Below, piece after piece: positions 11,006 to 27,732 of a stretch of 64,000 nt of DNA (within the stretch, counting starts at the first letter, position 1; every line of letters starts with the position of its first letter). The translations under genes were made by a program, and so were the position numbers. Below the pieces are notes generated by a model, which had not been told where the DNA came from, searched no databases, and was given only the letters and a program-made list of their open reading frames with translations. This DNA is from Pseudoflavonifractor sp. Marseille-P3106 (GTDB taxonomy: Bacteria > Bacillota > Clostridia > Oscillospirales > Oscillospiraceae): the NCBI GenBank assembly GCA_900169975.1, contig LT827126.1:1-64000 (forward strand), given 5' to 3'.

Positions 11006-11173
11006 CAATCTCTTTGCACTGCATTACATTCCCAAAGCGGGATGCGAGATCACCAGTACAAACTGAGCAGGCGATGCCCGGAAGGGCGTGGGGCCGGGCC
11101 GCCCAGCGAGCGGCAGCAGAGTGTGTTTGAGGCACCTGCGGGACAGTGGTATGTTCCGCAGGTGTCTTTTTTT
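11006..11173 (+). ncRNA. Structured small RNA, possibly 6S RNA
   Basis: From the expected start about 7 bases after the -10 box to a 15-bp terminator there are roughly 168 nt without a convincing gene. The segment can fold: TCTC and CACT near the 5' end pair with AGTG and GAGG near 11120-11131; CATTCCC/GGGATG (11027-11045) and ATGCCC-GGAA-GGGCGT (about 11074-11089) form hairpins. A weak closing stem, an AAGCGGG segment and a GAGCGGCAGCAGAG-like 3' arm recall the layout of 6S RNA, which binds the sigma-70/sigma-A holoenzyme. I cannot confirm the family. The next gene is a P-type ATPase 90 bp further on; a metal-sensing leader is the alternative. Confidence 0.5.
11131..11173 (+). terminator. 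Terminator of the small RNA
   Basis: 15-bp stem (core CACCTGCGG/CCGCAGGTG) with loop GTGGTA, then TTTTTTT (11167-11173). Confidence 0.88.
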
Positions 11174-24467: not shown

Positions 24468-24560
24468 CAGCCCGGGTCGGAGAATTTTCCTTCCGCAGTA
24501 GAAATGTTCATAATTGCATGCTATTTTGGAGACAGTGAAATTGACAAGGAGGTAATTGTC

Positions 24561-25970
24561 ATGGAAGAAAAGGAAAAGACCCCTGCCCAGCTCCGCCAGG
24601 AGGCTCTGCTGGACGATCGAAAGAACGGCTACGACCGGCTCACCCCCGAGGACGAGGCGGCCATGCAGTCCTACTGTGAGGACTATAAGAAGTTCCTGGA
24701 TGCCGCCAAGACCGAGCGGGAGGCGGTGGACGAGGTGGTGCGGCTGGCCCAGGCCAAGGGATTTGTGCCCTTCACCCGGGGCATGTCCGCCAACCCCGGC
24801 GACAAGTTCTACCGGGTGAACCGGGGCAAGGCCATCATGCTGGCCGTCATTGGAGACAAGCCCCTGGCCGACGGCGTGTCCATCGGCGCGGCCCACATCG
24901 ACTCCCCACGCCTGGATCTGAAGCCCGAGCCTCTCTATGAGGACAGTGAGATGGCCTTCCTCAAGACCCACTACTACGGCGGAATTCGGAAGTATCAGTG
25001 GGTGACCATCCCTCTGGAGCTCCACGGCGTCATCGTGAAGAAGGACGGCTCCACCGTGAAGGTGGCCATCGGCACCTGCCCGGGAGATCCCCTGTTCACC
25101 GTAGACGACCTGCTTCCCCACCTGGGGGCCGAGCAGTCCAAGAAGCCCCTGGGAGAGGCCATCCCCGGCGAGAGCCTGAATATTCTGGTGGGCTCCCGTC
25201 CCTTCAAGGATGACGACGGCTCGGATCGGGTGAAGCTGGCCATTCTGGATATCCTCAATCAGAAGTACGGCCTGGTGGAGGCCGACTTTATCTCCGCCGA
25301 GCTGGAGGCCGTGCCCGCCTTCCGGGCCAGCGACATCGGCTTTGACCGCTCCCTCATCGGGGCCTACGGCCAGGACGACCGGGTGTGCGCCTATGCCTCC
25401 CTGGCGGCCCTGCTGGAGACCGAGCGCCCCGCCCACACTGCGGTGTGCATGCTGGCGGACAAGGAGGAGATCGGCTCTGAGGGTGTGTCCGGCATGAAGT
25501 CCGCGGCCTTCGACACCTTTATGAGCGATCTCTGCGACGCCCAGCGGGTGGCGCTGAAGGTCTGCTACGAGCACTCCTTCTGTCTCTCTTCCGACGTGAC
25601 GGCAGCTTACGATCCCAACTTCGCTTCGGTCTACGACAAGTACAACGCCGCCCGGGTGAACTACGGCATGGGCTTCTGCAAATACACCGGTGCGCGGGGC
25701 AAGTCGGGCGCGTCCGACGCTTCCGCCGAGGTGGTTGGCTTTGTCCGCCGCACCCTGGACGACGCCGGAGTGATCTGGCAGATGTCCGAGCTGGGCGCGG
25801 TGGACGCCGGCGGCGGCGGTACCGTGGCGGTCTATATGGCCGAGCGGGACATCGACACACTGGACGCGGGCGTGCCTGTGCTGAGCATGCACTCTCCCTT
25901 TGAGACCACCGGAAAGCTGGACTGCTACATGACCTACAAGGGCATGAAGGCGGTCTATCAGGCCCACTGA
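24561..25970 (+). CDS. M18-family aminopeptidase
   Basis: A 469-residue zinc aminopeptidase of the M18 family (aminopeptidase I/ApeB), cytosolic and specific for acidic or neutral N-terminal residues. The metal-binding AAHIDSPRLDLK has His112 and Asp114; the catalytic DKEEIGSEG lies at about 300-308; MHSPFE near the C-terminus carries the last His. Start is ATG 24561 with AAGGAGGT seven bases upstream. After the stop there is a structured intergenic element instead of a simple terminator. Confidence 0.93.
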   Translation: MEEKEKTPAQLRQEALLDDRKNGYDRLTPEDEAAMQSYCEDYKKFLDAAKTEREAVDEVVRLAQAKGFVPFTRGMSANPGDKFYRVNRGKAIMLAVIGDKPLADGVSIGAAHIDSPRLDLKPEPLYEDSEMAFLKTHYYGGIRKYQWVTIPLELHGVIVKKDGSTVKVAIGTCPGDPLFTVDDLLPHLGAEQSKKPLGEAIPGESLNILVGSRPFKDDDGSDRVKLAILDILNQKYGLVEADFISAELEAVPAFRASDIGFDRSLIGAYGQDDRVCAYASLAALLETERPAHTAVCMLADKEEIGSEGVSGMKSAAFDTFMSDLCDAQRVALKVCYEHSFCLSSDVTAAYDPNFASVYDKYNAARVNYGMGFCKYTGARGKSGASDASAEVVGFVRRTLDDAGVIWQMSELGAVDAGGGGTVAVYMAERDIDTLDAGVPVLSMHSPFETTGKLDCYMTYKGMKAVYQAH

Positions 25971-25980
25971 GCCTGCCTGG

Positions 25981-26013
25981 AAATCCCGCCTCCCGTTTTG
26001 GGGGGCGGGATTT
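25981..26013. repeat. Left copy of a 33-bp hairpin repeat
   Basis: AAATCCCGCC/GGCGGGATTT stem. It is 30/33 identical to 26216-26248 and in the same orientation. Either copy could be the terminator of the aminopeptidase gene. Confidence 0.85.
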
Positions 26014-26215
26014 CAGCCTGTCGAAAAAGCCTCGCAGAGTTTCGCGCCCGCAGGCGCGAAAGCGGTGGGATCCGTTTTCTGCCGCGGCGTGTACGTGGCA
26101 GAAAACACATTTCGGCCTGTAAGTGTGCGCATGGTCCGCCAAAGGCGACCATGCGTGCGCGCGACGGGCTGCATCCTGCTCGGAAAAGTGGCGAAGCCAC
26201 TTTTTCGACAGCCTC
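26014..26215. mobile_element. Possible non-autonomous element with four internal hairpins
   Basis: About 200 bp without a gene, bounded by CTGTCGAAAAAG (26018-26029) and its inverse CTTTTTCGACAG (26200-26211). Inside are four hairpins: TTTCGCGCC/GGCGCGAAA (26040-26061, 4-base loop), TTTTCTGCC/GGCAGAAAA (26075-26105), CGCATGGT(c)CGCC/GGCGACCATGCG (26129-26154) and AAAAGTGGC/GCCACTTTT (26184-26204). Flanking 33-bp near-identical direct copies lie on both sides. Layout fits a MITE or a REP-like repeat; a structured RNA is an alternative. Confidence 0.6.
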
Positions 26216-26248
26216 AAATCCCGTCTCCCGTTTGAGGGGGCGGGATTT
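26216..26248. repeat. Right copy of the 33-bp hairpin repeat
   Basis: Second copy (30/33 identical to 25981-26013). It is followed by TTTTCTTT and can end transcription on the plus strand. Confidence 0.82.
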
Positions 26249-26319: not shown

Positions 26320-27000
26320 ATGAGTGAGACAGAGTTGCAGTTCCGCACGGCGGCGTTCGGCGGATTCCAAAAGCAGGATGTGCTGGCCTATCTGGAGACC
26401 AGCGCCAGGGACCACGCTGAGAAGCTCTCCGCCCTTCAGCGGGAGCTGGAGGAGGCCCGGCAGGCCCGGGCCGGCGCCGAGGCGCAGGCGGCGGAGCGGG
26501 AGGAGAAGCTGACCGCTCTGGAGGAGGAGAACCGCCGGCTGGCGGCCGATCTGGCCGCCCGGTCTGAGACCCTTGCCCGGGAGAGCGCTCAGCGCGCTGA
26601 GCTGGCGGGGCAGGTGGAGGCGCTCAATGGGGAGATCCGGAAGCTCACCCCTGCCGCCGCGGCTTACGCCGGGCTGAAGGACCGCACCGCCGGGATCGAG
26701 CTGGAGGCCCACAGCCGGGCCCAGGCCATCGAGGCGGAGGCCAAGGCCAAGGTCAAGCAGACCAAGGCGGAGCTGGAGAGCTGGTTCGATCAGCTCCAAA
26801 AGGCCTATGACGGCCTGCGTGCCGATTTGAACGCGTCGGTGGAACAGGTGTCCGGAGAGCTGGAGCAGGCGGCTCGGACGCTGAAGGGCCGTCCGGCCGA
26901 GCTGGCGGCCCGGGATGCGGAACTGAAGGCCCTGCGGGAGAGCCTGGGAAAGCTGACCGGACCCAAGGCCCCCCAGCCCCTTCCTTTGGAGCGCAGATGA
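26320..27000 (+). CDS. DivIVA-like coiled-coil protein
   Basis: A 226-residue protein with an N-terminal FGGFQKQDVLAYLE element (about 12-26), which is the DivIVA/GpsB-type lipid-binding start, followed by a long coiled coil (about 30-110) and a second helical region (about 125-215). DivIVA-like proteins mark curved membranes or link to cell wall synthesis. No membrane helix is seen. Start ATG 26320 after GGGAGG. It overlaps the next gene by 4 bp, an unusual partner. Confidence 0.75.
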   Translation: MSETELQFRTAAFGGFQKQDVLAYLETSARDHAEKLSALQRELEEARQARAGAEAQAAEREEKLTALEEENRRLAADLAARSETLARESAQRAELAGQVEALNGEIRKLTPAAAAYAGLKDRTAGIELEAHSRAQAIEAEAKAKVKQTKAELESWFDQLQKAYDGLRADLNASVEQVSGELEQAARTLKGRPAELAARDAELKALRESLGKLTGPKAPQPLPLERR

Positions 27001-27554: not shown

Positions 27555-27621
27555 GGAAAAAATTCTTGCGAGAAAGCACGAAGTGTGGTATAAATAATGT
27601 TTGAAAGACCGCACAATTGAA

Positions 27622-27712
27622 TCTGGGGGGGCCGGGGCAACCGGCTGAGATTTGGGCTGATACCGCCCATGACCCATGGAACCTGTTGGGTAATGCCATC
27701 GTAGGGAGAGTC
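27622..27712 (+). promoter_or_regulatory. TPP (thiamin pyrophosphate) riboswitch
   Basis: The conserved THI-box segments are present: GGGGCAACCGGCTGAGA (27634-27650), the ACCC-GGAACCTG part (27672-27685) and GGGTAATGCCATCGTAGGGA (27688-27707). It precedes a terminator hairpin and thiamin-precursor uptake genes, so TPP binding would stop transcription. Confidence 0.95.
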
Positions 27713-27732
27713 GCGCGGATTTGTTTTTGCGC

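Follow-up and report, generated by a model that had tools for sequence, protein, structure and literature searches.

A 202-bp MITE between two copies of a terminator hairpin in Pseudoflavonifractor sp. Marseille-P3106, with IS1182-family insertion sequences as its likely parents

The hairpin-flanked segment downstream of an aminopeptidase gene

The window, a stretch of 64,000 nucleotides of Pseudoflavonifractor sp. Marseille-P3106, carries an M18 aminopeptidase gene at 24504-25970 on the forward strand (PF02127, 263.5 bits) and a further gene on the same strand at 26320-27000. The aminopeptidase had been named correctly in the original prediction, which was made from the sequence letters. It had also called the downstream gene DivIVA-like, a label that Pfam did not confirm: only two hits were returned for this reading frame, both below the cut-off, so that no confident family can be given. 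The window also holds two riboswitches above the Rfam gathering score, one of the NiCo class at 11053-11148 and one of the TPP class at 27615-27725.

Between the two genes, the 33-mers at 25981-26013 and 26216-26248 were confirmed as direct repeats identical at 30/33 bases, each of them a hairpin, with a start-to-start spacing of 235 bp. They enclose a 202-bp segment at 26014-26215. The first copy, which forms the left half of the target duplication, directly abuts the end of this segment, and the second continues into the T-rich tract TTTTCTTTC. The terminator of the aminopeptidase gene is the likely target. Because the two hairpin copies differ at 3/33 bases, the insertion is judged not to be recent.

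The segment ends in inverted repeats, CAGCCTGTCGAAAAAG at 26014-26029 on the forward strand and the reverse complement of GAGGCTGTCGAAAAAG at 26200-26215 on the reverse strand. Originally put at 12 bp, they extend over 16 bp with 14/16 matches. All open reading frames that overlap the segment are mechanical calls, each crossing one of its ends, and it contains no transposase gene. It is placed here on the reverse strand, the orientation chosen for the family alignment.

Four internal stems, predicted at 9-12 bp, were found with lengths of 9-13 bp, along with a junction helix. From left to right these are hp4 (26040-26061), a 9-bp stem with variants among copies; hp3 (26074-26106), a 13-bp stem at 92% (helix 3 of the alignment described below); hp2 (26128-26155), with an exact 9-bp core (helix 2); and hp1 (26180-26208), a terminal hairpin with a 13-bp stem at 92% that overlaps the right inverted repeat. 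The junction helix (helix 1) encloses hp2, and its 5' arm at 26113-26120 and 3' arm at 26164-26171 were positioned in the window by eye from alignment A2.

Copies in the genome and among relatives

The BLAST search for dispersed copies that had been proposed as a check was productive. Besides the window's copy, the genome contains six more near-full copies that are 87-94% identical to it, and at least two partial copies (L008 and L009). The 202-bp segment is what these copies and those of relatives have in common, and the flanking hairpins are not shared. The version found in this genome was matched in 7 of 59 relatives, the other 52 being without a match. In Flavonifractor sp. An10 (G060) there were 64 matches, and the Vescimonas fastidiosa plasmid record pMM35_01 had 43 along its 861 kb, both figures including short and reverse self-matches. 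Genome G668 has the same coordinates as G060, and the two were treated as one genome. The plasmid search yielded one record with the element, and a query with the Vescimonas version also detected the core elsewhere in the family, in additional genera. Judging by the sequence of its copies here and the dozens in relatives, the element is mobile.

Some relatives carry altered or different elements. In G042, which belongs to another family of the order, the copies L031, L038, L043 and L172-L179 retain the 3' core (hp3, hp4 and CTCTGCGAGG), and their 5' half is replaced by a different set of hairpins, a modular exchange. In G136, also of another family, a different short element with the same end GAGACTGTCGAAAAAG, sometimes beside a hairpin, occurs at L103, L110, L112 and L114; we note in passing that these are further MITE lineages with such ends.

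Duplicated hairpins at the flanks of the copies

The two flanks were compared at 105 distinct copies, which come from a total of seven genomes or records. Flank repeats scoring at least 16 were present in 32 of these copies and in 0 of 400 swapped flank pairs. The set left out L008 and L009, the short and reverse self-matches, the copies of G020, G026 and G034, and L138, which lies at the same place as L090. This wider test is the one quoted throughout; a first test with 70-bp windows had given 33/106 at a score of at least 13 versus 1/600 controls, and two of those 33 (L171 in G033 and L149 in An10) were not hairpins. Among the 32 duplicated units, 29 were at least 60% base-paired, and the hairpin sequence varies between loci. 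Immediately outside 26 of the 32 units there is an A- or T-rich tract, compared with 108 of 1600 random flank windows (7%), as would be expected if the units are rho-independent terminators.

Duplicated flanks were found in four of the seven copies of the window's genome, among them the window copy, and in 16/40 copies of An10, 10/33 of Vescimonas and 2/4 of G036; none were found in G033 (0/7), G042 (0/13) or G004 (0/1). Altogether the duplication is lacking at 73 of the 105 copies, among which are L002, L006 and L007 of the window's genome. A partial right hairpin copy is retained at L006, and at L002 the first bases of the element complete the stop codon of a gene. The repeated hairpins lie at the element ends, except at L051, L084 and L085 and in the L140-L147 group, where between 6 and 119 extra bases separate the element from the hairpin on one or both sides. 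It was also noted that in 7 of 31 hairpin duplications (L004, L081, L083, L088, L141, L147 and L152) one copy better matches the reverse complement of the other, through either loop inversion after insertion or a part of the mechanism itself.

Sites with a single hairpin

Single-hairpin sites without the element, a second check proposed at the outset, were found in An10 and at the rny locus, and the terminators at the window locus proved to be unrelated. In the An10 copies L086-L089, an extra hairpin TTGCCCCTTCGGGGCAA inside hp3 is present once. At L138 of the same genome a second element with terminal inverted repeats, ending in CAGCCTGTCGA and TCGACAGTCTC, lies in that hairpin, and the internal hairpin stands on both sides of the nested element with about 20 bp repeated. 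What sets the L086-L089 subfamily apart is an additional insert in the hp3 loop, about 45 bp long and made up of two hairpins. At the rny locus of Vescimonas we observed a hairpin, the element and then a decayed second hairpin. Visual inspection of 12 rny orthologues showed a single terminator-like hairpin in each, without the element. The remaining 12 of the 24 loci, reversed or misplaced, were judged by BLAST alone, which across all 24 detected nothing of the core except two chance hits of 16 bases.

At the window locus the element was matched in 0/14 same-genus orthologues. Six of these were read downstream, and the single terminator of each is unrelated in sequence. In G013 (L182, read from the other side) about 60-70 bp separate the two genes, and no hairpin was seen there. 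The remaining seven are reversed and were judged only by the absence of an element match. Among the relatives' terminators that were read, none was a true empty allele of the window's own hairpin. By sequence comparison, these orthologues agree with an insertion at the window locus.

That six relatives carry unrelated hairpins at this position indicates that terminator turnover is real, which lends something to the idea that the hairpin pair arose by chance or by tandem duplication of a terminator and that the 202 bp were captured in between later. This idea is contradicted by recurrence: 29 copies, drawn from four genomes or records, and two insertion sequences show the arrangement with different hairpins, all at independent loci, and we consider it exceedingly improbable.

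Insertion sequences with matching ends

The search for a transposase source identified IS1182-family insertion sequences in relatives. One of them (L117, in G328) encodes a 526-aa open reading frame scoring 401 bits to NCBIfam NF033551 against a cut-off of 270. Its right end, when reversed, is CAGCCTGTCGAAAAAG, identical at 16/16 positions to the left end of the window's element, and a hairpin similar to hp1 was seen by eye just within that end. The insertion sequence is flanked by an exact 28-bp stem-loop, CGCCGGGTCACCGATTGGTGACCCGGCG, within a 30-bp direct match. A second one, L119 in An10 (370 bits to NF033551), is flanked by a 36-bp hairpin conserved at 34/36 positions; when aligned to L117, its transposase frame is interrupted by a single stop, so this copy may be inactive. 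The transposases of this type also match PF13751, PF05598 and PF01609, and the reading frames of the parent-type elements span 465-526 aa. Two further elements in G751 (L250 and L259) are cut by contig ends, and a hairpin abuts the visible end of each. The hairpin is thus duplicated in 2/2 matching-end insertion sequences with both ends readable and stands at the end in 4/4 with a readable end; a fifth, L244, lies too near the locus edge for its end to be read. From these ends and flanks, the parents of the window's MITE are likely to be IS1182-family insertion sequences of relatives.

An An10 locus (L261, G060:C11:210185-210574) was found to hold a remnant of an L117-type transposase in which residues 4-99 are joined to 441-479. 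It is an internally deleted insertion sequence and represents a possible step from insertion sequence to MITE.

A parent within the genome itself was considered and rejected. Two IS1182-type transposases occur there, one of them in an intact element; the ends of that element and the other's right end have another sequence, and none with matching ends was found in this genome. Because both belong to elements with different ends, the window copy may now be stranded. The intact one, L058 (358 bits), resembles the proposed parent in transposase family and in its palindromic target GACACTGTGTC; it differs in its ends, GGGGCTGTTGACAAAG, and in duplicating only the central 7 bp, CACTGTG, and not the hairpin. 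In one relative, an IS1182-family element with other ends (L247) has flanks that share only AATAAA, with no hairpin duplication. The exact terminal inverted repeat pattern was matched in 16 of 394 genomes of the order, the window's genome included, and no IS1182-type transposase lay within 1.5 kb of these exact matches. A tblastn search with the L058 transposase against 23 loci with a match returned nothing, and several of the exact matches look like chance coding sequence.

Proposed mechanism of insertion

Taken together, the segment at 26014-26215 is very probably a MITE for which an IS1182-family DDE transposase, recognizing its ends, supplies mobility in trans. The transposase would target a stem-loop, usually a rho-independent terminator, and the anatomy of the duplicated sites suggests that the element is joined to the two 5' feet of the target hairpin and that gap repair then copies the whole stem-loop to either side. 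Because repair would leave a full hairpin on both sides, each neighboring gene would keep a terminator, and the sparing of terminators may be of benefit. The first alternative of the original prediction, a MITE with duplication of the terminator it targeted, is upheld by the dispersed copies, the hairpin duplications tested against controls, the insertion sequences with matching ends and the single-hairpin sites. Three things were observed directly: dispersal, the duplication of a hairpin specific to each locus, and likewise duplicated hairpins around matching-end elements of the IS1182 family.

Conservation of the interior stems

We sought to characterize the interior of the element as well. 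The forward strand of the hairpin-flanked region folds at -166.9 kcal/mol, compared with -107.8 +/- 5.05 kcal/mol for 200 dinucleotide shuffles (z = -11.7), and the reverse strand at z = -8.4; for neither strand was any shuffle as low. Alignment A2 comprises 66 of 106 copies and 5 further loci, or 71 distinct sequences. Copies with inserts, other 5' modules or truncations were excluded, as were all those of G042, G036 and G004, and its pair counts describe the hp2-type only. Across the three helices, 97.5% of 2199 cells are paired, and in 23/31 pairs both partners have changed; hp3 has compensatory changes between copies. The most variable stem is hp2, where for every one of the 11 aligned pairs at least one copy has both bases altered. 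The covariation score of the alignment was 0.488; shuffling lowered it to 0.172 (0/500) and sliding to 0.101 or less. The unpaired segments CTCTGCGAGG and CACACT are nearly invariant and more conserved than the stems.

The balance between G-T and A-C cells hinges on two helix-end pairs, and there are few G-T cells elsewhere. In 29 stem pairs we counted 10 G-T cells versus 1997 Watson-Crick and 31 A-C, and in all 31 pairs 74 G-T versus 31 A-C and 2071 Watson-Crick. A tally of unique stems, which omitted variants with more than 3 mismatches, gave 7 G-T and 15 A-C for hp2 and 6 G-T and 7 A-C for hp3. We would expect more G-T cells of an ordinary RNA, the comparison being with an expectation and not with a control RNA.

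The conserved interior may reflect a DNA fold needed for mobility, a function of the core after insertion, or the correction of palindromes during replication. One reading of the interior is a structured non-coding RNA that serves the host and was packed secondarily between IS1182-type ends, so that its mobility would be incidental. The pairing and covariation in A2 and the near-invariance of several unpaired motifs speak for it, as do observations made by eye in Vescimonas, where many copies keep the core and have lost the right inverted end and where the left-end hairpin changes on both arms together. The scarcity of G-T among the 29 stem pairs and the 52 of 59 relatives without this genome's version count against such an RNA, as does the Rfam result: in gathering-threshold and E-value modes, no family reached its gathering score on the element, and the weak matches, all sub-threshold and to unrelated families, were rejected. 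We therefore regard a host RNA as unlikely. The structured RNA originally offered as an alternative to the MITE thus has partial support from the strong covariation, with G-T scarce outside the two helix-end pairs and no Rfam family at its gathering score.

Template-switch correction of imperfect palindromes in replication could instead keep the stems perfect, in which case the covariation would be mutational and the element junk once inserted. Few G-T intermediates occur in most pairs and both-sided changes are seen between copies within one genome, both as such correction would predict, and it would also yield the loop inversion seen in 7/31 flanking hairpins. It leaves unexplained the stronger conservation of the unpaired CTCTGCGAGG and CACACT relative to the stems, and overall it appears somewhat unlikely. 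A broader proposal is that folded DNA, and not sequence, is the unit of recognition throughout: the transposase would read hairpins both at its target and immediately within the element ends. In several Oscillospiraceae genera, compensatory changes acting on the DNA itself would preserve the multi-helix fold of the MITE interior, most stem positions having few G-T. This we put forward as a speculation that is more doubtful than probable. With its many copies, covarying stems and few G-T, the element offers a test case for separating DNA-level from RNA-level structure.

Comparison with known systems

Integron attC sites are recognized as folded single-stranded DNA, the fold and not the sequence being read; the likeness to the present targets is one of analogy only, and attC sites differ in having another recombinase and no known target duplication. 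REP and BIME sequences likewise are not known to produce target duplications. ISfinder gives direct repeats of 0-60 bp for the IS1182 family. One IS1182 element tabulated in PMC3196728 has short direct repeats. A REP-like repeat, which the original prediction had also named, was rejected, as a 202-bp multi-stem element with target duplication does not fit the 20-40 bp palindromes described in excerpts of PMC3733652.

Bacterial MITEs such as QMITE2 of Coxiella are similar in their length of about 200 bp, inverted ends, lack of a transposase gene, stable secondary structure and many copies (PMC10969869). QMITE2 has direct repeats of 7-9 bp, in contrast to the complete hairpin unit of 24-45 bp duplicated here, and compensatory conservation of several internal stems is not among the traits described for bacterial MITEs in the excerpts of that paper (PMC10969869).

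The closest systems are IS1272, an IS1182-family element of staphylococci that replaces hairpins (Wan et al., PMC5678879), and TnSha1, which partially deletes its hairpin without duplication (PMC4923244). In the available portions of both papers, these elements share with ours an IS1182-family transposase and a target chosen by stem-loop structure and not by sequence, several of the targets being terminators (PMC4923244, PMC5678879). Their hairpins are partly or wholly deleted, however, whereas those described here are fully duplicated. Replacement of the IS1272 type was rejected for the present element, which has whole hairpins on both sides and no deletion. Beyond the two IS1272 papers, neither whole-hairpin duplication by IS1182 elements nor this element appeared among the matches listed for CC-licensed PMC texts, as represented by titles and the beginnings of abstracts.

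The element of the window is thus seen as a probably IS1182-dependent MITE with whole-hairpin target duplication. Terminators could serve as safe insertion sites, each neighbor keeping one. As far as the excerpts of Wan et al. extend, duplication of a whole hairpin is drawn for IS1272 only as a possible pathway b (PMC5678879), and the copies described here provide comparative evidence that IS1182-type transposition can duplicate an entire stem-loop.
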